Source: an uncultured Desulfovibrio sp.
GTDB lineage: Bacteria > Desulfobacterota > Desulfovibrionia > Desulfovibrionales > Desulfovibrionaceae
NCBI RefSeq assembly: GCF_944324525.1
Contig: NZ_CALUWS010000016.1
Span: 1-53,453 of the forward strand
DNA length: 53,453 nt
Reading direction: 5' to 3'
Under the pieces are notes generated by a model. It worked only from the letters and a program-made list of their open reading frames with translations, made no database searches and was not told the origin of the DNA. Of the stretch, positions 5,714 through 53,453 are shown in pieces; the first letter of the stretch is position 1, and each line of letters begins with the position of its first letter. The position numbers and the translations under genes are program-made.

Positions 5714-9883
<4,170 letters not shown>

Positions 9884-9946
9884 ATAGCTACCTTGCTTGT
9901 CAAAAGCTCGTTACAGTCCTTGCCTCTGCCGACGGATGAGCGGCGG

Positions 9947-14170
<4,224 letters not shown>

Positions 14171-14456
14171 GCTGTACCTCAAGTGGGTAGCGGTTGCGCT
14201 TCGGTTCCTGACGCCGGGTGGGGTGGCCCCGTGCCGCCGGGCGGACGCACGCTCTGCGGGCGACGCCAGTCTGCCGCTGTCCGAAGCGTAGTTCCCTTGG
14301 GTTTCTGGTCAAAGACGCAACAAAGGACAAACGGGCGCACCCCTCTTTGCGGGGCGTTCCGTTTGCCTGCCTGAAAAAATCTATGCCGTGCGTGTGCGTT
14401 TTGCCGTAATGACCAGAGTATCCCCCAATGCATTATAGGAATCAATGCTCATATCC
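14171..14456 (-). promoter_or_regulatory. rpoB upstream region with possible promoter
   Basis: On the minus strand an exact TATAAT (14437-14432) lies about 260 bases before rpoB, but no good -35 hexamer sits 16-18 bases upstream of it. A short GCCCC...GGGGTGC hairpin follows in the leader. No remnant of rplL is seen. Confidence 0.35.
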
Positions 14457-42016: not shown

Positions 42017-43492
42017 ATGAATGAAATTCTCCCTCTCCAGGCGGGCGGCGGTTCCTTTGACGTCTGCTCCATGCTCAATATCGCCATCATGAATCTGCCG
42101 ACCGGCCTGTTCATTTGCGACAGGAACGGAGTGATCGTCTTTATCAACAAGGCCTATGCCGGATACCTGAATATCGAGCCGGAGCAGGCCATCGGACGGC
42201 ATATCACGGAACTCATCCCCGATTCGCGCATCCCCGACGTACTGCAGAACGGAGAGCCGGATATCGGGGCCATCCGGCTCATCAGCGAGACTTCGAGCCG
42301 CATCCTGACCAACCGTTATCCGCTGTACAACGCGCAGGGCCAGCTCATGGGCGCCATGTCCATGGTGGTGCTGGACAAACCGGAGCAGCTCCACATCCTC
42401 CAGCGGCAGATCGATTCCCTCGGACGCAAGGTCAGCCGCTATGCCCGCCGCATCAAGACCGCGCTTGAGGCCCGCTATACGCTGGACTCCCTCGTGGGTT
42501 CCTCGCCGGCCATGCTGTCCTTCAAGCAGCTTTTGCTGCGCTTTGCCCGGACGGACGGCACCGTACTCATCAACGGCCAGACAGGCACCGGCAAGGAGCT
42601 GGCGGCCAGCGCCATCCATAACGCCAGCAGCCGCAGCGGCGGCCCCTTCGTCAGTCTCAACTGCGCGGCCATCCCGCAGGAACTCTTTGAGAGCGAACTT
42701 TTCGGCTACGCGCCGGGGTCGTTTTCCGGCGCGCGCAAAGAGGGCAAGGAAGGCCAGATCGAACTGGCGGACGAGGGGACGCTCTTTCTGGATGAAGTGG
42801 GGGATCTGCCGCCCGGGGCGCAGGTCAAGCTGCTGCGCGTCATCGAGGAGCGGGCCGTCCGCCGGGTGGGGGACAGTACGCCCCATCCGGTCAACTTCCG
42901 GCTGGTGACGGCCACCAACCGCGATCTGGGCAAGATGGTGGCCAACGGCACCTTTCGGGAAGACCTCTATTACCGCATCAATTCCATGCTGCTGACCCTG
43001 CCGCCGCTGCGGGACCGGCGGGAGGACATCCCCGCCCTGGTGGAACACATGCTGGAGCGGCAGGGGAATATCCGCTGCAGCGCGGAAGTGATGGCCGTTT
43101 TTCTCCGCTACACCTGGCCGGGCAATGTGCGCGAGCTCAAGAACGTCCTTTCGCATGCGCTCAGTCTGGCGGAAGGGGAGGTCATCACGCTGGACGATCT
43201 GCCGCCGTCGTTGCTGATGAGCGCTTCCCTGCCCGAAGACGACCGGCCTACCGGCGGCGAGCAGCGCCTTGGCGCCATCCGGGACAACAGCGAGCGCAAC
43301 GCCATCCTGGTCGCTTTGCGGGAAAACCGCTGGAATGTCTCGCGTACGGCGCAGGCGCTCGGCATCTCGCGGGCCAATATGTATGAGAAGATGCGCAAAT
43401 TCGGCATCAGGCGGCATGCGGAGGGCGCCGGACGTCCGTCGCGCGGGACAGCCGGCGGAGATATGTCTGGATATACGGACAAGCTGTCTTGA
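42017..43492 (+). CDS. Sigma-54-dependent transcriptional activator with N-terminal PAS domain
   Basis: 491 residues. PAS domain 18-125 (LPTGLFICDRNGVIVFINKAYAGYL). AAA+ domain about 155-385 with Walker A NGQTGTGKE, Walker B GTLFLDEVGDL and the arginine-finger segment. The sigma-54 contact loop, normally GAFTGA, reads GSFSGA here. The C-terminal Fis-type helix-turn-helix (NRWNVSRTAQALGISRANMYEKM) binds upstream enhancer sites. Two sigma-54 promoters lie downstream (43614 and 45087), at the solute-binding protein and DASS genes, so it most likely activates that cluster in response to a small ligand seen by the PAS domain. The ribosome binding site before 42017 is weak. Confidence 0.9.
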   Translation: MNEILPLQAGGGSFDVCSMLNIAIMNLPTGLFICDRNGVIVFINKAYAGYLNIEPEQAIGRHITELIPDSRIPDVLQNGEPDIGAIRLISETSSRILTNRYPLYNAQGQLMGAMSMVVLDKPEQLHILQRQIDSLGRKVSRYARRIKTALEARYTLDSLVGSSPAMLSFKQLLLRFARTDGTVLINGQTGTGKELAASAIHNASSRSGGPFVSLNCAAIPQELFESELFGYAPGSFSGARKEGKEGQIELADEGTLFLDEVGDLPPGAQVKLLRVIEERAVRRVGDSTPHPVNFRLVTATNRDLGKMVANGTFREDLYYRINSMLLTLPPLRDRREDIPALVEHMLERQGNIRCSAEVMAVFLRYTWPGNVRELKNVLSHALSLAEGEVITLDDLPPSLLMSASLPEDDRPTGGEQRLGAIRDNSERNAILVALRENRWNVSRTAQALGISRANMYEKMRKFGIRRHAEGAGRPSRGTAGGDMSGYTDKLS

Positions 43493-43613
43493 GTGTCCGC
43501 CCCGGCAGACAAGAGAGCAGGGGAAAGCGCCGTCCGCCGCTGCGGGGCACGCTTCCCGTCAGCATTGCCGCGGGCGGAAGATGCCGCCGCGGCGGCCTGG
43601 AGGCGGGTGATGC

Positions 43614-43629
43614 TGGCATGTAACTTGCT
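43614..43629 (+). promoter_or_regulatory. Sigma-54 promoter of the solute-binding protein gene
   Basis: TGGCATG-TAAC-TTGCT: GG at -24 and GC at -12 with exactly the expected spacing, close to consensus TGGCACG-N4-TTGCW. It is 32 bases before the ATG. Confidence 0.8.
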
Positions 43630-43660
43630 CAGCGCGTGGAAAACCCTTCAGGAGGTCGTT

Positions 43661-44698
43661 ATGCGAACTGTGCTTTCTACGCTTCTGGCCTTTTTGCTGC
43701 TGGCAAGCCTGCCGCAGTCCGCCTACTGCGAAGCGCCATATACGCTCAACACCGCATGGCTGGTGGAGCATGAGGCCTTTGCCGCGTGGTACGCCCGCCA
43801 GAACGGCTGGGATGTGGAGGCGGGTTTCCGGCTCGATATGAAATTCTATGCGTCGGGCCGGGAACTGATGGCCGACATGCAGCGCGCGCCCTGGCAGATC
43901 GCCGCTTGCGGCGCCTTGCCCGCCCTGACGGCCTCCCTGGAAAATGCGGCGGAGATCATCGCCATCGGCAATGACGAGTCCCTGGCGACCGGCATCTATG
44001 TCCGCAAGGACAGCCCCATGCTGGGCCATACCGGCTATAATGCGCTCTATCCCGAAATGGCCGGCACGACCGGGACGGTACGCGGCAGGACCATCCTCTG
44101 CACGCTGGGCTCGTCCGCCCATTATACGGTGCACAAGTGGCTTGCGGCGCTCGGGCTGACGGAAAAGGACGTCATCCTCAAGGATATGTCGCAGGAAGAG
44201 GCGTTGCGCGCCTTTCTTGCCGGGGAGGGGGATGCCGTGGCGCTCTGGGCTCCCTACACGCTGGAGGCGGAACGCAACGATCTCCAGCCGGTGACGCTTT
44301 CCAGTCAGTGCGCCGCCAGTCAGCCGACGCTCATCCTGGCGGACAAGGCGTTTGCCCACCAGCATCCCGAGCGCGTCCGGGCCTTCCTGAGCATGTACTT
44401 CCGGGGGATCGCCGCCCTGCAGGAGACCCCGCGCGAAAAGCTCCTCGCGGCCTATGCCGACTTCCAGAAGCAATGGACGGGCAAGCACCTGCCGCCGCAG
44501 GATGCCGCCTGGGAACTGGCGCGCCACCCGATATTCGGGCTTGACGGACAGCTTGCCCTCTTTGCCGGAAAGGATCAGCGGCTACAGGGCTGGCTGCGCT
44601 CCCTGACCGATTTTGCCGGCGGCGCAACCCGTCTTGGAGATGTGACGGATCAGTATTTGCGTGCGCTTGCCGGCGAAGCGCAGCCTGCGCAGAAGTAG
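43661..44698 (+). CDS. Periplasmic solute-binding protein (SsuA/TauA/NMT1-like), copy 1
   Basis: 345 residues with a signal peptide (1-23, ending AYC-EAP). The body starts YTLNTAWLVEHEAFAAWYA and includes WQIAACGALPAL and TILCTLGSSAHYTVHKWLAALGL (shown in parts), which fit the two-lobed binding proteins for sulfonates, nitrate or thiamine precursors. No ABC permease or ATPase genes lie beside it. A paralogue, broken by a stop codon, closes the same cluster at 50285-51331. AGGAGG precedes the ATG and a sigma-54 promoter precedes that. It may present a sulfonate to the DASS transporter downstream or to a distant ABC system. Confidence 0.8.
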   Translation: MRTVLSTLLAFLLLASLPQSAYCEAPYTLNTAWLVEHEAFAAWYARQNGWDVEAGFRLDMKFYASGRELMADMQRAPWQIAACGALPALTASLENAAEIIAIGNDESLATGIYVRKDSPMLGHTGYNALYPEMAGTTGTVRGRTILCTLGSSAHYTVHKWLAALGLTEKDVILKDMSQEEALRAFLAGEGDAVALWAPYTLEAERNDLQPVTLSSQCAASQPTLILADKAFAHQHPERVRAFLSMYFRGIAALQETPREKLLAAYADFQKQWTGKHLPPQDAAWELARHPIFGLDGQLALFAGKDQRLQGWLRSLTDFAGGATRLGDVTDQYLRALAGEAQPAQK

Positions 44699-44700
44699 GT

Positions 44701-44740
44701 CCGTCCGGCAGGTCGGCCTGACGGCCTGCCGGACGGAGCC
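44701..44740 (+). terminator. Hairpin after the first solute-binding protein gene
   Basis: A 12-base-pair perfect stem, 3 bases after the stop; a T5 run follows at some distance (44746-44750), so termination efficiency is uncertain. Confidence 0.5.
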
Positions 44741-44962
44741 GCCCGTTTTTCTCCACCAGTCCCTCTGGCCGGGCGCGGCCCATTTCGCCTCCGCGTTGCC
44801 GTTTGTCCGGCTCCTCCACACGGTCTGCCGCTCTCCCGCCGGCAGGCAGTACGACGACCCCGACGACAGTTCGTCGGGGTCGTTTCGTATCGGCCGTCTG
44901 AAGCGGCGCATAGTTTTTCCCTGTCAAATATTATTTTCACAAATTGTATGATTTTTAAGACA

Positions 44963-45028
44963 TTCTGTCGTTCTGTCTTTTTTCAAAGACAACATTTCGG
45001 ACAATTTCGCTGTGAAACTTAGCGAAAT
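44963..45028. promoter_or_regulatory. Enhancer-like repeats upstream of the DASS sigma-54 promoter
   Basis: Direct repeats TTCTGTC (44963-44969 and 44971-44977) and an inverted repeat ATTTCGCT (45004-45011) / AGCGAAAT (45021-45028). The latter is centred about 70 bases upstream of the -24 element, a typical place for an activator site. Confidence 0.5.
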
Positions 45029-45086
45029 ATTGTATAACTAGTTATATTTATAGATATTTTTTCATATGCGACACGTTTTCATACGC

Positions 45087-45102
45087 TGGCACGCATCTTG
45101 TA
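45087..45102 (+). promoter_or_regulatory. Sigma-54 promoter of the DASS-aldehyde dehydrogenase-CoA ligase operon
   Basis: TGGCACG-CATC-TTGTA: a perfect -24 half with correct spacing; the -12 half has GT in place of GC. It is 63 bases before the transporter ATG. Confidence 0.7.
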
Positions 45103-45164
45103 CTAAATAGCACAAATAAACGCGCGTTAGCATATCTCGTCATTATCAGCATGGAGACAGTGTT

Positions 45165-46673
45165 ATGAGTCGTCTGAACAACTGCCTGACAGCCATATGT
45201 GGCGACAGAGTGCCGCTGGAAACAGCGCGCAAGACCTTTTTCTTTCTCCTGGGCATCGGCATCATGCTGCTGGTCATAGCCCTGCCCACGCCTCCGCCCT
45301 TCTATAAGGGGGAAGAGGTCATCCCCCTGACGCAAAATGCCAAAATCGTCATGGGCGTTTTGTGTTTCGCCGTCATCATGTGGATGACGGAAGCCATCCC
45401 CTTTCCCGCCACGTCCCTGAGCCTCATCGTGCTGCTGCACATCATGAACGTCGATTCCTTCGGCAACCTCGTCAAGGCGGGCCTGGGCAATCAGTCCATT
45501 CTCTTTCTCATGGGGGCCATGGGGCTTTCCGCCGCCATGACGGAATCCGGCCTCGCCCGGCGTTTCATGCTCTGGATGCTGACCAGGGTCGGCCGCCGCA
45601 CGGATCGCATCGTGCTGGCTTTCATGCTGGTGGGTACGCTGGTATCCATGTGGGTGACGGATATGGCCGTGGCCGCCATGCTGCTGCCGCTGGGCATGAG
45701 CATCCTGCAGGGCAGCGGCTGCAAGCCGCTGGAAAGCAATTTCGGTCGAGCCCTCATGATCGGCATCGTCTGGGGCAGCCTCATCGGCGGCACGGCCACG
45801 CCCGCCGGCTGCGGCGCCAACGTGCTGGCCATGCAATATGTGCGCGACATCGCCAAGCTGGACGTCTCCTTTGCCGAGTGGATGGCCGTGGGCGTGCCCG
45901 GCGCGCTGCTCATGGTCCCGCTTGGCTGGTTCTGCCTTATGAAGATATTTCCGCCGGAACTGAAGGAAATCCCCATGTCCCTCGACAGCATCCGTGATGA
46001 ACTGCGGGCTCTCGGCGGTCTCAAGGCCAAGGAAATCCGTACGCTCGTGGTGTTCGTGGTGATGGTGGCCCTGTGGCTCGGCGGATCGCATGTCGCTCCC
46101 ATCCTGGGCTTCAAGGCTCCGGAAGCCTTCGTGGCCCTGCTGGGCTTCGTGCTCCTCTTCATGCCCGGCCTGCGCGTGTTCGAAGACTGGAAGGACGCTT
46201 CCCGCAGCATCGACTGGGGCGGCCTCATCCTGATCGCGGGCGGCATTTCGGCCGGCATGCTGCTGGCCAGCACCGGCGCGGCCCGCTGGATCGCCTGGGG
46301 GGCCCTGTCCGAAGTGGGCAGCCTGCATCCCGTGTTGCGGGTCCTCGCGGTCATCACCCTCGTGGAGCTGCTCAAGATCTTCTTCTCCAGCAACAGCGTC
46401 ACCGGCGCGGTGATCATGCCGCTCATCATCGCCCTGGCCATGGATATCGGCATGAACCCCTGGGTGCTGGCCGGTCCTGCAGGCATCGCCTCCAGCATGG
46501 CCTTCATCATGGTGACCTCCAGCCCCACCAACGTCATCCCTTATTCATCCGGCTATTTCACCATTGCCGAGTTCGCGAAGTCCGGTGTGGTGATGACCAT
46601 CATCGCCATCTGCTGCGTCACCCTCTCGGTGTCCGTCTTCGGAAGTTTCGCCGGAATGGACATCTGGCACTAA
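45165..46673 (+). CDS. DASS family anion:Na+ symporter
   Basis: 502 residues, about eleven to twelve helices. Family motifs include MWMTEAIPFPATSLSLIVLL, the VTDMAVAAMLLPLG and GGTATPAGCGANVLA loops, and SSNSVTGAVIMPLIIALA near the C-terminus, matching the SNT-type sodium/carboxylate motifs of SLC13 proteins. These carry di-anions such as dicarboxylates, sulfate and, in some, C2 sulfonates. It is the first gene of the operon with the acylating aldehyde dehydrogenase and CoA ligase, so sulfoacetate is a reasonable substrate. The start is the ATG after GGAGACAGTGTT. Confidence 0.88.
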   Translation: MSRLNNCLTAICGDRVPLETARKTFFFLLGIGIMLLVIALPTPPPFYKGEEVIPLTQNAKIVMGVLCFAVIMWMTEAIPFPATSLSLIVLLHIMNVDSFGNLVKAGLGNQSILFLMGAMGLSAAMTESGLARRFMLWMLTRVGRRTDRIVLAFMLVGTLVSMWVTDMAVAAMLLPLGMSILQGSGCKPLESNFGRALMIGIVWGSLIGGTATPAGCGANVLAMQYVRDIAKLDVSFAEWMAVGVPGALLMVPLGWFCLMKIFPPELKEIPMSLDSIRDELRALGGLKAKEIRTLVVFVVMVALWLGGSHVAPILGFKAPEAFVALLGFVLLFMPGLRVFEDWKDASRSIDWGGLILIAGGISAGMLLASTGAARWIAWGALSEVGSLHPVLRVLAVITLVELLKIFFSSNSVTGAVIMPLIIALAMDIGMNPWVLAGPAGIASSMAFIMVTSSPTNVIPYSSGYFTIAEFAKSGVVMTIIAICCVTLSVSVFGSFAGMDIWH

Positions 46674-46730
46674 GGAACGCCCGGCGCGTCCGCAATCTTG
46701 CACATACCTAATTTTCCGGGAGGAAAATCC

Positions 46731-48125
46731 ATGAAGACCATCAGTGAACAAATGGAACTGGCCCGCAAGGCGCAGGAAGCCATCAACGACTATACTCAGG
46801 AGCAGGTCGACGAGATGTGCCTTTCCGTGGGCTGGGAAGTCTATGAAGACGAAAATATCGCCAGGCTGGCCCGCATGGCCGTGGAAGAAACGGGCTTCGG
46901 CAATGTGGAGAGCAAGATCATCAAGCACAAGCGCAAGGTGGGCGGCGTGCTGCATGACATCCGCGGCGCCAAGAGCGTGGGCTGCATAGAGCGCGACGAG
47001 AAGAACGGCATCTCCAAGTATGCCAAGCCGGTGGGCGTCATCTGCGCCATCCTCCCGGCCACCAACCCCACGTCCACCTGCGGCGGCAAGGCCGTGGGCA
47101 TGCTCAAGTGCCGCAATGCGGTCATCTTCAAGCCCAGCTCGCGCGCGCTGAAGTGCACCACCGAGGCCATCAACATGATGCGCAAGGGCCTGAGACGCGT
47201 GGGCGCGCCCGAGGACCTCATCCAGGTGGTGGAGGACAACAGCCGCGAGGCCGTGGCCGAACTCATGAAGGCCAGCGACCTTGTGGTGGCCACCGGCAGC
47301 GGCGCGGTGGTGCGCGCGGCCTACTCCAGCGGCACGCCGGCCTACGGCGTGGGGCAGGGCAACGCCGTGCCCATCGTGGCCGAGGATGCCGATGTGGCCG
47401 AGGCGGCAAAGCTCATCTGCGGCAGCAAGCTCTTTGACTACGCCACTTCCTGCTCGTCCGAAAACGCCGTGGTGCCGGTGGAGGCCATCTACGATCAGTT
47501 CATGGCCGAAATGAAGAAGAACGGCTGCTGGCTCGTGGAAGGCGAGGACCGGGAAAAGCTCAAGAACTACATGTGGAAGATCAATGCCAAGGGCAAGCTG
47601 GCCCTCAATCAGGACGTCATCGCCAAGTCCGCCCGCGTCATCGCCGAGGCCGCCGGCATCAGCATCCCGGACGGTACGGAGATCCTGCTCGTGGAAGGCA
47701 CGCAGCCCATCCGTGAGGACAAGTTCCATGACGAGAAGATCTCGCCGGTGCTGACCGTCTACAAGGCCAGGGACTTCATGGACGCCTACCGCATCCTGAC
47801 CGAGCTGACCAGCCTTGTGGGCCGCGGCCATTCCTGCGGCATCCATACCTACAAGCGGGAATACATCGAGTATCTCGGCGAACATATGAAGTCCTCCCGC
47901 GTGACGGTGCGTCAGGCCATGAGCGCGGGCAACGGCGGTCATCCCTTCAACCGCATGCCCTCCACGGCCACCCTGGGCTGCGGCACCTGGGGCGGCAACA
48001 TCACGACGGAAAATGTGCACTGGAAGCATTTTATGAACGTGACCTGGGTCAATGAGCCCGTGGAACCGTGGAGCTTCAGCGACGAGGAAATGTGGGGAGA
48101 ATTCTGGAAGAAGCACGGCAAGTAG
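46731..48125 (+). CDS. CoA-acylating aldehyde dehydrogenase, candidate sulfoacetaldehyde dehydrogenase (SauS-like)
   Basis: 464 residues of the acylating aldehyde dehydrogenase group (EutE/SucD/SauS). The catalytic cysteine is C241 in YATSCSSENAVV; the NAD-binding and CoA-side motifs include VGVICAILPATNPTSTCGGKA (shown in parts) and GVGQGNAVP. Reaction: acyl-CoA + NADH to aldehyde + CoA, reversible. With the ADP-forming ligase next door it could turn sulfoacetate into sulfoacetaldehyde, the branch known from Cupriavidus (SauS) and proposed for sulfite-reducing gut bacteria. Succinate semialdehyde dehydrogenase (acylating) is the main alternative. GGGAGGAAA precedes the ATG; 57 bases separate it from the transporter. 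Confidence 0.75.
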   Translation: MKTISEQMELARKAQEAINDYTQEQVDEMCLSVGWEVYEDENIARLARMAVEETGFGNVESKIIKHKRKVGGVLHDIRGAKSVGCIERDEKNGISKYAKPVGVICAILPATNPTSTCGGKAVGMLKCRNAVIFKPSSRALKCTTEAINMMRKGLRRVGAPEDLIQVVEDNSREAVAELMKASDLVVATGSGAVVRAAYSSGTPAYGVGQGNAVPIVAEDADVAEAAKLICGSKLFDYATSCSSENAVVPVEAIYDQFMAEMKKNGCWLVEGEDREKLKNYMWKINAKGKLALNQDVIAKSARVIAEAAGISIPDGTEILLVEGTQPIREDKFHDEKISPVLTVYKARDFMDAYRILTELTSLVGRGHSCGIHTYKREYIEYLGEHMKSSRVTVRQAMSAGNGGHPFNRMPSTATLGCGTWGGNITTENVHWKHFMNVTWVNEPVEPWSFSDEEMWGEFWKKHGK

Positions 48126-48197
48126 GTTGACCGGCGGCCCGCAGGGGCCGCCCCCCCCTGCCAAGACGGCGCGCAAAAGCGCGCAAAAGGATTGACC

Positions 48198-49319
48198 ATG
48201 AAGCTGTTTGAATATCAGGCGAAAAATATTTTCCGGGAAAAGGGCATCACCACCCCCAGAGGCATACTTATCCGCAATATGGAGGATCTGGATGCCGCCG
48301 TTGCCGACATCGGCCTGCCCTGCGTGCTCAAGTCGCAGGTGCTGCGCGGCGGACGCGGCAAGGCCGGGCTCATCCGGCTGGTGAAGGACGCCGAAAGCGC
48401 CCGCAACGAGGCGCAGGAGCTCTTTGCCTCCGAGCATAACGTCCATATGATCCTGGTGGAAGAGGCGGTCAGCATCGCCAGCGAGATTTATCTGGCCGTC
48501 ACCGTGGACGCCGTGACCTCCACCGCCATGCTCATCGGCTGCGCCGAGGGCGGGGTGGAGATCGAAAAGCTGGCCGCCACCGCCCCGGAAAAGATTGTGA
48601 CCGTCAAGGTGGATATGTCGCACGGGCTCGGCGGCTTCCACGTCAACAATCTTGTGTACGGCATGGGGCTGCCCACGGAGCTGATCAAGCCCGTCAGCGC
48701 CGTCGTCCGCAATCTCTACAAGACCTTTACGGCCTACGATGCCCAGCTGGCGGAGATCAACCCCCTGTTCATCACCACGGACGGCACGCCCATTGCCGGC
48801 GACGGCAAGCTGATCATCGACGACAACTCCGAATGGCGGCATCCCGACTATCCGCTGAGCCGCGAGCAGTTCGACTCGCAGGTGGAATTCGAGGCCGCGC
48901 AGGAGGGCATCCCCTATCTGGTCTTCGACGGGGACGTGGCCCTGATGTGCGCCGGAGCGGGGCTCACGACCACGGTCTTCGACCTCATCAACGATGCGGG
49001 CGGCACGGTGGCCACCTATGTGGAATTCGGCGGGGCCAACTACACCAAGGCCGTGCGGACCATGGAACTCTGTCTGGAAACGCCCAGCAAGGTCATCCTG
49101 GTGGTGACGTTCGGCACCATCGCCCGCGCGGACGTCATGGCGCAGGGGCTGGTGGAGGCCATCAAGACGCACAAGCCGCAGCAGCCCATCGTGACCTGCA
49201 TCCGCGGCACCAACGAGGAAGAGGCCTTCAAGATCCTGCGCGAAGCCGGACTTGAACCGTTGACCAATACTGAAGAAGCTGTGCAACGTGCGGTGGACAT
49301 CGCCGCGGGGAGGGCCTGA
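48198..49319 (+). CDS. ADP-forming acyl-CoA ligase beta subunit (SucC-like)
   Basis: 373 residues, succinyl-CoA synthetase beta family. The ATP-grasp start is KLFEYQAKNIFREKGI, then VLRGGRGKAGLIRLV, the metal-site AEINPLFIT and the C-terminal flavodoxin-like domain with FGGANYTKAVRTMEL and TIARADVMAQGL. A true SucC has GGRGKAGGVK at the nucleotide loop; here the loop ends GKAGLI, a divergent residue pattern that suits a substrate other than succinate. ATG 48198 has AAGGA 7 bases upstream. It overlaps the alpha subunit gene by one base. In this context a sulfoacetate-CoA ligase is likely. Confidence 0.78.
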   Translation: MKLFEYQAKNIFREKGITTPRGILIRNMEDLDAAVADIGLPCVLKSQVLRGGRGKAGLIRLVKDAESARNEAQELFASEHNVHMILVEEAVSIASEIYLAVTVDAVTSTAMLIGCAEGGVEIEKLAATAPEKIVTVKVDMSHGLGGFHVNNLVYGMGLPTELIKPVSAVVRNLYKTFTAYDAQLAEINPLFITTDGTPIAGDGKLIIDDNSEWRHPDYPLSREQFDSQVEFEAAQEGIPYLVFDGDVALMCAGAGLTTTVFDLINDAGGTVATYVEFGGANYTKAVRTMELCLETPSKVILVVTFGTIARADVMAQGLVEAIKTHKPQQPIVTCIRGTNEEEAFKILREAGLEPLTNTEEAVQRAVDIAAGRA

Positions 49320-50200
49320 TGAGCATTTTCGTCAACAAGCAGTCGCGCGTCATCGTGCAGGGCGTCACGGGCAAGGAAGGGGCCTTCTGGGCGAAACACA
49401 TGAAGGACATGGGCACGCAGGTGGTGGCGGGCGTCACCCCCGGCAAGGAAGGCCAGAACGTGGACGGCATACCGGTGTATCACTCGGTACGGCGCGCCAC
49501 GGCGGAACATCCGGCGGACGTCTCCATGCTCTTCGTGCCGCCCAAGTTCACCAAGGATGCGGTATTCGAGGCGCTGGACGCCGGCATCCGCAAGATCTGC
49601 ACCATTGCCGACGGCATCCCCCTGCATGACGCCATCGAGATTCGGCGTGCCGCCATGTCCTGCGGCGCCATGGTCATCGGCGGCAACACGTCCGGCATCA
49701 TCTCCGCCGGAGAAGCCATGCTGGGCACGATCCCCTATTGGATCGAGCGCGTGTACCGTAAGGGACATGTGGGCGTCATGACCCGCAGCGGCTCCCTGAC
49801 CAACGAGGTGACGGCCGAGATCGTCAAGGGCGGCTTCGGCATCACCACGCTCATCGGCGTGGGCGGCGACCCGGTGCCCGGCACCCGCTTTGCCGAGCTT
49901 CTGCCCCTGTATGAAGCCGACGACGATACGCATGCCGTGGTCATCATCGGCGAACTGGGCGGCACCATGGAAGAGGAAGTGGCCGAAGCCAGGGAGGCCG
50001 GCATCTTCACCAAGCCCCTTGTGGCTTTCATGGGCGGACGTACCGCTCCGGAAGGCAAGCGCATGGGTCATGCGGGCGCCATCGTCACCGGCGGCCGCGG
50101 TACGGTCAAGGGCAAGACGGCGGCGCTCATCCAGGCCGGAGCCAAGGTCGCCAAGCGGCCCAGCGAGGTCGGCCCGCTGCTGCGGTCCTTCCTTGGATAA
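49319..50200 (+). CDS. ADP-forming acyl-CoA ligase alpha subunit (SucD-like)
   Basis: 293 residues. The CoA-binding domain begins FVNKQSRVIVQGVTGKEGAFWAKHM; the phosphorylated active-site histidine is H251 in RMGHAGAIVTGG. It receives phosphate from ATP and makes an acyl-phosphate for CoA transfer. The start codon overlaps the beta-subunit stop (TGATG), a sign of a coupled complex. Position before a second solute-binding protein and after the aldehyde dehydrogenase supports a role in activating the imported anion. Housekeeping succinyl-CoA synthetase is the alternative but the operon partners argue against it. Confidence 0.8.
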   Translation: MSIFVNKQSRVIVQGVTGKEGAFWAKHMKDMGTQVVAGVTPGKEGQNVDGIPVYHSVRRATAEHPADVSMLFVPPKFTKDAVFEALDAGIRKICTIADGIPLHDAIEIRRAAMSCGAMVIGGNTSGIISAGEAMLGTIPYWIERVYRKGHVGVMTRSGSLTNEVTAEIVKGGFGITTLIGVGGDPVPGTRFAELLPLYEADDDTHAVVIIGELGGTMEEEVAEAREAGIFTKPLVAFMGGRTAPEGKRMGHAGAIVTGGRGTVKGKTAALIQAGAKVAKRPSEVGPLLRSFLG

Positions 50201-50284
50201 GGAGTAAGGCCGGCCGGGGGCGTTCGTGCCTCCGGCCGGCTGGCGAGCCGCGGGTGGCTGTCACATCAACTCACGAGGTCGTCT

Positions 50285-51331
50285 ATGAGAATTCGCATCG
50301 CGCTGCTGCTGACCCTGCTGTTGGGATTGCTTGCCGCCCCGGTTCACGCGGAAATAGCGCTCAAGACCGCATGGCTTGGCGAACACGAAGCCTTTGTCGC
50401 CTGGTATGCCAAGAAGATGGGCTGAGACAAGGAGGCGGGACTGAGCCTGACCATGCTGCAGTTCGGCTCCGGCGACAAGATCATGTCCACCCAGCAGGAG
50501 CATGATTGGGCCATTGCCGCCTGCGGCGCCGTCCCTGTGGTCGTGTCTCCCCAAATCGACAATGTGTACATCATCGGCCTTGCCAATACGGAAACCGAAG
50601 CCAACGCCATCTACGCCCGGGAAGGTGGCCCCATCATGCAGGCAAAGGGCGCCAATCCCCAGTTTCCCGACGTGTTCGGCAGCGCGGAAAGCCTGCGCGG
50701 CAAGACCATACTGTGTCCGGTCAACACCTCGGCGCACTACCTGCTCGACAGGTGGCTGACCATCCTTGGCCTGACGGAAAAGGACGTCAAGGTGAGCAAC
50801 GTGCTGCCCGGCCCGGCCATCGACATGATGAGCAAGGATTTTGGCGATGCCGCCGCCCTGTGGTGGCCCGCCAATGCCCGCGCCGCCAAGGCGGGGCTGG
50901 TGGAAGCCGCCTCGTCCAAGGCCTGCGGCGTGGAACATCCCATCGTCCTGGTCGTCAAGCGGGATTTTGCCCATCAGCATCCCGATCAGGTCATCATGTT
51001 CCTGCGCCTCTACCTGCGTACCGTGGCCGAGATGCAGCGTCTGGGGCCCGACACGCTTGTGGAGCAGTACCGCATCTTTGCCCTGCAGTGGTACAAGCAG
51101 GATATGAGCCGTGAGGATATTCTCGAGGATTTGCGTCTGCATCCCATCTACAACATCGATCAGCAGATGGCGCTTTTTGACGACAAGGAAAAGGGCCTGC
51201 CCGCCTGGATCAGTCAGATCGCCGATTTTTATGCCCGCAGCGGATCCCTTTCGCCTGAAAGAAGGGCCGAGCTCGGCCGCCTGTCCTTCCTCAATCCCCA
51301 TTTCCTCAAGGCCGTCTGGCTGACGCGGTAG
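50285..51331 (+). pseudogene. Solute-binding protein copy 2, interrupted by an in-frame UGA at codon 47
   Basis: The frame opens with ATG 50285 (signal peptide, IALLLTLLLGLLAAPVHAE) and matches copy 1 residue by residue: IALKTAWLGEHEAFVAWYAKKMG. At 50423-50425 there is TGA where copy 1 has Trp (GWD). It continues in frame as DKEAGLSLTMLQFGSGDK and on to TAG 51329-51331. The change is TGG to TGA. Either the gene is a recent pseudogene, or the base is a sequencing error. Selenocysteine is unlikely because the paralogue has Trp and no clear SECIS hairpin follows. An internal start at 50453 would give a protein without a signal peptide. It is 84 bases after the ligase alpha gene, in the same operon. 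Confidence 0.75.
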
Positions 51332-51908: not shown

Positions 51909-52155
51909 ATTGCTTGTTCGTGGGGAAGGATACCCCTTCGCCTTGCTGTCGATGCCGGCATGGGCTTTCATCTGCGGCACACCGGCAGCACGTGCCCAGA
52001 CGGCAACATGCCGCACCGATGCCTGACGCCTTGCTGACCGGCTCTGCGTCAGGATGGCTTGCCAAGCAGCCCTTTCGTGCTGATAGTATCTGAAGGAGCC
52101 GGTGCGGCATGTGGCCCTGCCGGATGATCTTTTCTCTTGTCATCGGAGGTTGCCG

Positions 52156-53453
52156 ATGTTGCAGCACCTTTTGAAGATAGTGGCCGCTCTTGTCATGCTG
52201 GCGGTTTTGGTTTTGCTCGTCCAGCTCAACGGGCTGGCCCGCGAGCTGACGGAACTCTTTGCGCCCGGCTGGGGCAGGATCGCCTGGCTGGCCTGCGCCG
52301 GTCTGGAACTTGTCGCGCTGATCTGGCTGGGACTGGCCTGCTTTGCCCGTCCGTCCCGCCTGCTGCTGCGTGAGGATCCCAGCGAGGCGGAACGGCAGGC
52401 CTTTGCCGCCGAGCTGACGCACCGGTTGAGCGCGAACCGTCTGGTACGGCAGGCCGGACTTGATCCCGCCGCGGAGGATTTTCTGCCTCAGGCGCTGGCC
52501 CTGCTGGACAAGAAGGCGGATGCCATCATCCGCAGCGACGCCAAAAAAGTGTTTCTGGGCACGGCGCTTTCCCAGAACGGACGGCTGGATGCGCTCATCG
52601 TCTTTGTGGCGCTCTGCCGCATGGTCTGGAAGGTATCGGCCATTTATAACCAGCGGCCTTCGCTGCGGGAGGTGTGGAGCGTCTATCACGCGGTCTCTTC
52701 CGCCACTTTTCTGGCCTTTTCCATCGAGGCGCTGGATATACCCCGCACGGTGACGGAAAGCATGAGCGCGCTTGTTCCGGCGGCGGCCCCTTCTCTGGCC
52801 ACGGCTTCCGTCCCGCTGGTGGGGGCCTCGGTACAGTTCTTCACTACGGCGGCCATCGACGGCGCGGCGAACAGTCTGCTTGCCATCCGGGCGGGCATGA
52901 GCACCAAGTATGCCTTTCGTCATGCGGCGCTGGATGAGGAGGACGCGCGGCAGGCAGGCATTCGGGACAGCGCGGCCATGCTGCTGGCCGTATCCGGCGA
53001 ATGCCTGAATGAAGTGGTGAATGCTCTGCGCGGTCAGATCTGGCAGATGGGGAAGTCGGCTGGCGGATCGTTGCGCCATGCGGCAAGCAGCGTGAGCGAA
53101 GGCGTATGCGCGGCAGGCTCTGCGGCGGCCTCAGCGGTGACGCGGAGCAGCGGTGCGGTGGTGGATGCGGTGGACAACGGCATCTCGGCGACGCTGAAGG
53201 CGGCGGGCACGGCCACCAGCGCCACGGTGGGCGCGGTAAGTTCGGCGGCGTCGGCCGTGGGCAGCGGCGTGCGGAACGCGGCAAGCAGCGTGAGCGAAGG
53301 CGTATGCGCTGCGGGCTCGGCGGCGGCCTCAGCGGTGACGCGGGGCAGCGGTGCAGTGGTGGATGCGGTGGACAATGGCATCTCGGCGACGCTGAAGGCG
53401 GCGGGCACGGCCACCAGCGCCACGGTGGGCGCGGTGAGTTCGGCGGCGGGAAC
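52156..53453 (+). CDS. DUF697-like membrane protein with tandem repeats, truncated by window end
   Basis: At least 432 residues and still open at the last base. Two transmembrane helices lie at about 5-23 and 38-60. The middle (about 75-285) has the DUF697 (YcjF-type) pattern: helical NRLVRQAGLDP, FLGTALSQNGRLDALIVFVALCRMVWKVSAIYN (shown in parts), RPSLREVWSVYHAVSSA and VPLVGASVQFFTTAAIDG. From about residue 309 it becomes an Ala/Ser/Val/Gly-rich repeat of 66 residues, with at least two nearly identical copies. DUF697 proteins often partner with a small GTPase; none is in the window. CGGAGG precedes ATG 52156. Confidence 0.75.
   Translation, partial: MLQHLLKIVAALVMLAVLVLLVQLNGLARELTELFAPGWGRIAWLACAGLELVALIWLGLACFARPSRLLLREDPSEAERQAFAAELTHRLSANRLVRQAGLDPAAEDFLPQALALLDKKADAIIRSDAKKVFLGTALSQNGRLDALIVFVALCRMVWKVSAIYNQRPSLREVWSVYHAVSSATFLAFSIEALDIPRTVTESMSALVPAAAPSLATASVPLVGASVQFFTTAAIDGAANSLLAIRAGMSTKYAFRHAALDEEDARQAGIRDSAAMLLAVSGECLNEVVNALRGQIWQMGKSAGGSLRHAASSVSEGVCAAGSAAASAVTRSSGAVVDAVDNGISATLKAAGTATSATVGAVSSAASAVGSGVRNAASSVSEGVCAAGSAAASAVTRGSGAVVDAVDNGISATLKAAGTATSATVGAVSSAAG
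53080..53453 (+). repeat. 198-bp in-frame tandem repeat within the DUF697-like gene
   Basis: Unit 1 is 53080-53277; unit 2 starts at 53278 and is cut by the window end after 176 bases. A handful of substitutions separate them. Each encodes 66 residues, beginning AASSVSEGVCAAGSAAASAV, then DAVDNGISATLKAAGTATSA. Confidence 0.9.

Follow-up and report, generated by a model that had tools for sequence, protein, structure and literature searches.

A sigma-54-controlled gene cluster in an uncultured Desulfovibrio that probably serves sulfoacetate respiration by way of Xsc

The stretch of DNA analysed here (the window; 53,453 nucleotides) is contig C16 of the 2.9-Mb draft genome of an uncultured Desulfovibrio sp. 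(93 contigs, completeness 100, contamination 0.87). It contains a cluster, carried entirely on the + strand, that encodes a sigma-54 activator, a solute-binding protein (SBP1), a DASS-family transporter, a SauS-like acylating aldehyde dehydrogenase, and the two subunits of a SucCD-like ADP-forming CoA ligase. Sulfoacetate arises when sulfoquinovose and taurine are broken down, and it can be converted to H2S by sulfidogens, Bilophila among them. The cluster is probably a module for sulfoacetate respiration under its own sigma-54 activator, with the sulfur released via Xsc. A preliminary description of this DNA had named the same gene parts, in agreement with the family scores and coordinates; its end point at 51331 is the end of a gene that it did not describe, a second binding-protein gene (SBP2). 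The features of the cluster are as follows.

42017–43492, + strand: PAS / AAA+ sigma-54 activator with a Fis-type helix-turn-helix (HTH) (Sigma54_activat 219 bits, HTH_8, PAS)
43464–43481: enhancer copy TGTC-N10-GACA, overlapping the 3' end of the activator gene
43494–43511: enhancer copy TGTC-N10-GACA
43614–43628, + strand: sigma-54 -24/-12 promoter of the first binding-protein gene
43661–44698, + strand: SBP1, TauA/SsuA-like periplasmic binding protein (60 bits against the TIGR01728 cut-off of 163.5)
44974–44991: enhancer copy TGTC-N10-GACA
45087–45101, + strand: sigma-54 -24/-12 promoter of the DASS-sauS-sauCD unit
45165–46673, + strand: DASS-family sodium/anion symporter, probable sulfoacetate carrier (TIGR00785 240 bits, cut-off 199)
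46731–48125, + strand: SauS-like CoA-acylating sulfoacetaldehyde dehydrogenase (NF047625 504 bits, cut-off 600)
48198–49319, + strand: SauC-like beta subunit of the ADP-forming CoA ligase (TIA in place of the GIV loop)
49319–50200, + strand: SauD-like alpha subunit of the CoA ligase (Asn in place of Tyr; phospho-His motif intact)
50285–51331, + strand: SBP2, second TauA-like binding-protein gene (in-frame TGA at 50423–50425)

The activator combines the Sigma54_activat domain and Fis-type HTH of a bacterial enhancer-binding protein (bEBP), and its Walker A motif is GQTGTGKE. Of the 18 loci whose SauS reaches 55% identity or more, 12 also hold a relative of it (44–93% identity), and some of the remaining six loci are cut short. 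The activator loop at 42716–42733 reads GSFSGA, and the usual loop motif of most sigma-54 activators is GAFTGA.

The two sigma-54 promoters proposed earlier, at 43614 and 45087, are the sole exact matches in the 53 kb to TGGCAYGNNNNTTGY, a pattern that was fitted to these same two sites (0.17 expected; 2 of 100 shuffles reach two). When two mismatches to the sigma-54 consensus are allowed, matches occur at chance level (28 found, 29.2 expected), and conservation was therefore used as evidence instead. An alignment with three related loci (L041, L042 and L043) shows no change in the core of the 43614 site and, in the core at 45087, C/T variation at two positions alone, both amid diverged DNA. 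Since L043 is nearly identical to the window in this region, L041 and L042 bear the weight of the conservation by which both promoters are borne out.

The motif TGTC-N10-GACA is found at 31 sites in 21 of 26 regions upstream of cluster units (17 loci, 11 kb), compared with four sites in the other 321 kb, and in 14 of 18 regions once the four discovery loci are excluded. The regions are intergenic, limited to roughly 500 bp and then extended by 35 bp. As they were set after the sites had been listed, and as some loci are close kin, the binomial p-value for the enhancer serves as a guide only. The enhancer centres in the window lie 104–141 bp upstream of the -24 element, a normal enhancer distance. 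The PAS activator is predicted to pair with this enhancer.

Activation of sulfoacetate and its reduction to sulfoacetaldehyde under one sigma-54 activator are well supported by the ligase motifs and the xsc linkage described below. No other match to the SauS-like protein in its own genome exceeds 29 bits. The CSSEN motif is present in 9 of the 11 sequences checked and missing in two less alike ones (L052 and L026). Among the 149 genomes of the family that were searched, 12 encode a SauS at 55% identity or more, and sucC adjoins sauS in all 12 (the own genome and L004–L014), compared with neither of the two loci at 42–44% SauS identity (L015 and L016).

The ligase carries distinctive substitutions at the positions that contact the substrate. 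Succinyl-CoA synthetase grips the far carboxylate of succinate through Tyr167 of the alpha subunit and a GIV motif of the beta subunit, and the 3-sulfopropionate ligase HpfYZ has His (HpfZ) and GIN (HpfY) at these positions (PMC11489063; this and the other papers given by PMC number are cited from partial texts). Tyr and GIV are also present in the SucCD of E. coli, used for comparison. The window and the 18 related loci compared with it all have Asn and TIA at these places (19 of 19 sequences; TVA in L093), and all retain the phospho-histidine motif GHAGA. The beta subunit, at 316.9 bits, is below the TIGR01016 cut-off of 375.55, and the alpha subunit is below both the TIGR01019 cut-off (322.7 against 353.2) and that of NF004230 (335.2 against 336). 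No second SucC over or near the cut-off occurs in the own genome, where the next match has 23 bits. A canonical succinyl-CoA synthetase is rejected on the scores of both subunits and the replacement of Tyr/GIV with Asn/TIA, and an HpfYZ 3-sulfopropionate-CoA ligase on the missing His/GIN signature in all 19 sequences. The ligase is predicted to accept sulfoacetate.

In five relatives, xsc lies within the sauS-sauCD cluster (L093, L094, L095, L096 and L047), a linkage that connects the dehydrogenase with sulfoacetaldehyde more convincingly than the scores do. The order in L093 (G051), on one strand, is xsc-sauS-sauC-sauD-tctA-(tctB)-tctC-phnX. In L094 (G029) and L095 (G032), xsc immediately precedes sauS-sauC-sauD-tctA...tctC. 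One strand of L096 (G056) holds sauS-sauCD-tctA...tctC, the activator and xsc. In L047 (G157), one xsc adjoins the activator together with phnX, and another, truncated where the contig stretch ends, is found beyond sauD. A further locus, L106, has xsc after tctAC and the activator. The enhancer and a sigma-54 match of 11–12/12 are present upstream of xsc in L093–L096 and L106. Xsc is encoded in 8 of the 12 family genomes with a SauS of at least 55% identity, compared with 16 of the 137 without such a SauS (Fisher p 5e-5 over the 149 genomes, uncorrected for kinship).

The cluster-linked Xsc of L094 (8817–10532) and L095 (7165–8880) is 47% identical to the own-genome Xsc yet over the Xsc cut-off, and represents a second Xsc lineage. 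The gene phnX (phosphonoacetaldehyde hydrolase) repeatedly accompanies xsc, at L053 (8125–11037, on contig C15 of the own genome), L047, L059–L062, L064, L065 and L093. It is over its cut-off in L053 and L093, and in L093 it comes after tctC of the sau operon, where the stretch analysed ends.

The own genome encodes an Xsc that is over its cut-off (TIGR03457, 775 bits against 676; G000:C15:31306-33009), as well as two full-length dsrA genes (G000:C17:36885-38141 and G000:C7:12362-13621; 643 and 642 bits). The preliminary description had led sulfoacetaldehyde through isethionate to an isethionate lyase, and had proposed a search for islAB. A search for PFL-like glycyl-radical enzymes, which gave a match in 3 of 14 control genomes, found none of any kind in the own genome (estimated completeness 100), and an IslA-type query had no relative there at E 1e-50. 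Nor did a sulfoacetaldehyde reductase appear as a SarD over the cut-off of 700 bits: the two proteins of the own genome over the cut-off for iron-dependent alcohol dehydrogenases (Fe-ADH), the one reductase family covered, score 253 and 146 bits. The isethionate/IslA end is on this evidence rejected for this strain. An isethionate lyase, whose absence that description had itself named as a refutation, was thus not found in the genome. The first half of the description, from sulfoacetate to sulfoacetaldehyde, is supported by the ligase motifs in 19 of 19 sequences and the xsc linkage in five relatives; its second half, isethionate and the lyase, is not supported here.

The distribution of Xsc and IslA was compared among 20 genomes with a SauS of at least 55% identity, the Xsc of G157 being taken from locus L047. 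NF048011 scores both IslA and HpsG types, and no NCBIfam model separates them; identity to an IslA-type protein was therefore used, with IslA counted at 70% or more. The best solved matches of this reference are 5ymr (1521 bits) and 7kq3, an 'isethionate sulfite-lyase' (1403), followed by 6lon (1208). Seven genomes have Xsc only (G000, G086, G051, G149, G150, G151 and G153), and six have both Xsc and IslA (G029, G032, G056, G107, G137 and G157). The close sisters G149, G150, G151 and G153 have Xsc in four of four and IslA in none of four (sister completeness is not given). One PFL-like enzyme, 34–35% identical to IslA, is present in each of the sisters G149, G151, G152 and G153, and none was found in G150. 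The single glycyl-radical enzyme of G051 is 64% identical to the IslA-type reference; we infer that it is of the HpsG type, because second copies at 63–64% coexist with relatives of 71–76% in four genomes (G073, G137, G154 and G157). Outside the 20, G156 (SauS 44%) has neither Xsc nor IslA. A gene could be hidden by the draft assembly, though four sisters repeat the pattern of Xsc present and IslA absent.

A likely taurine locus is found on contig C18 (L117, 4206–9754), where genes for a Tpa-like aminotransferase and alanine dehydrogenase lie with those for two binding proteins, one of the Bmp type and the other TauA-like, the third such protein of the genome and 37% identical to SBP1. The aminotransferase reaches 486 bits against the cut-off of 488 for a broad subfamily. 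The label 'Tpa-like' rests on the gene neighbours, because a PDB search with this protein returned no entry named as a taurine enzyme.

In the mechanism that we propose, the PAS activator would bind TGTC-N10-GACA about 100–140 bp upstream of both sigma-54 promoters and switch on SBP1 and DASS-sauS-sauC-sauD. Sulfoacetate would enter via the DASS carrier and be coupled to CoA by SauCD, at the cost of one ATP, and the resulting sulfoacetyl-CoA would be reduced by SauS with NAD(P)H to sulfoacetaldehyde. The unlinked, thiamine pyrophosphate (TPP)-dependent Xsc would then convert sulfoacetaldehyde into acetyl phosphate, from which the ATP could be repaid, and sulfite, which Dsr would reduce to sulfide. 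Taurine probably uses the same Xsc through the Tpa-like aminotransferase and alanine dehydrogenase. The substrate, the direction of the reaction and the role of Xsc in this strain's sulfoacetate pathway are inferred from sequence. If the proposal is true, sulfoacetate respiration needs no oxygen-sensitive radical enzyme, a Desulfovibrio branch joins sulfoacetate to the TPP enzyme Xsc, and sulfoacetate and taurine share one sulfoacetaldehyde hub. In that case islA would fail as a marker for these organisms, and better ones would be sauSCD with xsc and the enhancer TGTC-N10-GACA.

Several observations weigh against sulfoacetate respiration through Xsc under this activator. The best NCBIfam model of the dehydrogenase is that of SauS (NF047625), but its 504 bits are under the curated cut-off of 600, and the protein is named 'SauS-like' for this reason. 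The own xsc sits with phnX on contig C15, apart from the sau cluster on C16; no enhancer was found within 19 kb around it (L053), nor a sigma-54 match upstream, which rules out this gene as a member of the sigma-54 regulon. Being unlinked and without these elements, it may encode an Xsc that serves taurine alone. The enhancer is missing from 5 of the 26 upstream regions (those of the L042 DASS, the L045 tctA, and the sauS of L046, L096 and L104), and no sigma-54 match was found in the tctA upstream regions of L045 and L047. Among the 20 genomes, four have IslA without Xsc (G012, G053, G073 and G154) and three have neither (G062, which is 58% complete, the sister G152 and the spirochaete G155). 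The own genome may also hold a sulfoacetaldehyde reductase of the short-chain dehydrogenase/reductase (SDR) type.

The alternatives differ in the fate of sulfoacetaldehyde, the direction of the pathway or its substrate. The full pathway described earlier, with isethionate formed from sulfoacetaldehyde and cleaved by IslA, is reported for Bilophila wadsworthia (PMC12890257), and 10 of the 20 genomes, four of them without Xsc, encode a relative of IslA at 70% identity or above. For this strain it is nevertheless highly improbable, given that the own genome yielded neither a glycyl-radical enzyme nor a SarD over the cut-off and that IslA is also missing from the five closest sisters (best match 34–35% in four, none in one; completeness not given). 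The module could also run in reverse, oxidising taurine-derived sulfoacetaldehyde to sulfoacetate with formation of ATP and export by DASS. SqwD/SqwKL of the sulfo-TK variant provide a precedent (PMC12890257), and the spirochaete locus L050 (1733–10042), with a transaldolase, a DeoR regulator, SauS, SauCD and DASS, perhaps represents the sulfoacetate-producing direction, of the sulfo-TK/TAL type. This direction seems unlikely here, though it is the least implausible of the alternatives: the relatives' modules come with tctA/tctC and with xsc in one cluster, and a TctC receptor is the mark of an importer. Moreover, a genome with Xsc and Dsr would gain an electron acceptor through sulfoacetate uptake.

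A C3 or C4 substrate, either 3-sulfopropionate in the manner of HpfX/HpfYZ or succinate converted to succinate semialdehyde, would fit the acylating succinate-semialdehyde dehydrogenase 8cei, which ranks second among the solved structures matched by the SauS-like protein. B. wadsworthia grows with 3-sulfopropionate (PMC11489063), by a route termed unclear (PMC12890257). We consider such a substrate very improbable, since the signatures of succinate (Tyr, GIV) and HpfYZ (His, GIN) ligases are missing in 19 of 19 sequences and the xsc linkage points to sulfoacetaldehyde.

The sulfoacetate pathway of B. wadsworthia consists of SauCD-SauS-TauF-IseG and a putative SauXYZ (TTT) transporter (Liu X. 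et al. 2023, as cited in PMC12890257 and PMC12625764). The combination of SauS and SauCD with a TTT transporter had thus been described, and to call the pairing of parts in the window unusual, as was done before, overstates the case. Both systems have a SucCD-type ADP-forming CoA ligase and SauS, a sulfonate yields the electron acceptor, and tctA/tctC relatives occur in ten of our loci. The window genome differs in that IslA/IseG was not found and no SarD/TauF is over the cut-off, and in its Xsc, DASS carrier and sigma-54 enhancer code. Such an enhancer code was not found in the partial texts on these sulfonate pathways, and eight papers listed by a literature search do not mention sigma-54. 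B. wadsworthia 3.1.6 and two previously studied Desulfovibrio strains are without Xsc and use IslA (PMC6386719), and Cupriavidus necator H16 has a SauS-SauT pathway (PMC12625764). The SauS step is common to C. necator and the window, which instead has a SucCD-type ligase, DASS or Tct in place of SauU, and a host with dsrA. The SauS-SauT pathway of C. necator ends in Xsc.

Taurinivorans muris respires taurine via Tpa-Ald-Xsc, reduces the sulfite by Dsr and has no SarD or IslAB; the same paper mentions Desulfovibrio metagenome-assembled genomes (MAGs) with tpa-xsc (PMC10507020). The organism studied here is likewise a member of the Desulfovibrionaceae with Xsc and Dsr, in which SarD and IslAB were not found and a Tpa-like protein and Ald are encoded. 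It differs by the predicted entry of sulfoacetate via SauCD-SauS, which would give the shared hub a second way in; the T. muris paper nowhere uses the word sulfoacetate. The SqwD/SqwKL and HpfX/HpfYZ of fermenters also pair an acylating dehydrogenase with an ADP-forming ligase, but run oxidatively, unlike the direction proposed here; the HpfYZ signature is missing here, and SqwKL is set beside the present ligase by description only. Genes for SauCD and Xsc together in a sponge-symbiont MAG are already in print (PMC12625764). No paper pairing sulfoacetate with Xsc in Desulfovibrio was found among the titles, abstract starts and passages covered by the literature search. SauCD-SauS and taurine respiration through Xsc are known; what is new is that a Desulfovibrio type with dsr combines the two, along with the enhancer code and the swap of DASS and Tct carriers.

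This swap is seen in ten loci in which tctA and tctC relatives replace DASS (L044, L045, L047, L093–L098 and L106); the Tct families were confirmed in L044 only, where TctB is below its cut-off. DASS is present in the window, L041–L043, L046, L048, L051 and the spirochaete L050, and neither DASS nor tct was found within the short contigs of L049 and L104. The region 43490–46730 is 98–100% identical to L043, amid less alike neighbours (activator 91%; upstream hydrolase 88% over 1005 of 1182 bp; sauS-sauD 94–97%; downstream gene 86%), and this transport block therefore looks recently exchanged between related species. SBP1 is 100% identical in L043, 88% in L041 and 87% in L042. That SBP1 and DASS form a binding-protein-dependent sulfonate importer, which would be a new kind of DASS system, is suggested by their common sigma-54/enhancer control and their position inside the apparently exchanged block; we regard it as most unlikely, and L046 and L048, which hold DASS without SBP1, count against it.

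SBP2 is interrupted by an in-frame TGA at 50423–50425, where related loci have a tryptophan. The tct-type loci L044 and L045 carry an uninterrupted homologue, whereas none was found in L041–L043. SBP2 is probably a pseudogene, or the stop a sequencing error; its distribution is consistent with a decaying remnant.

Of the 12 named relatives, nine bear the label Desulfovibrio or Desulfovibrionaceae and no further genus name, one is an Avidesulfovibrio and two are spirochaetes; the names of some suggest chicken droppings or reindeer as their origin. Directly downstream of the cluster, a gene for an Ala/Ser-rich repetitive protein (52154–53451) runs off the contig end, and such a gene is also downstream of the cluster in L041–L045. 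Elsewhere in the window, positions 5807–14374 form a very long open frame of 2855 aa.

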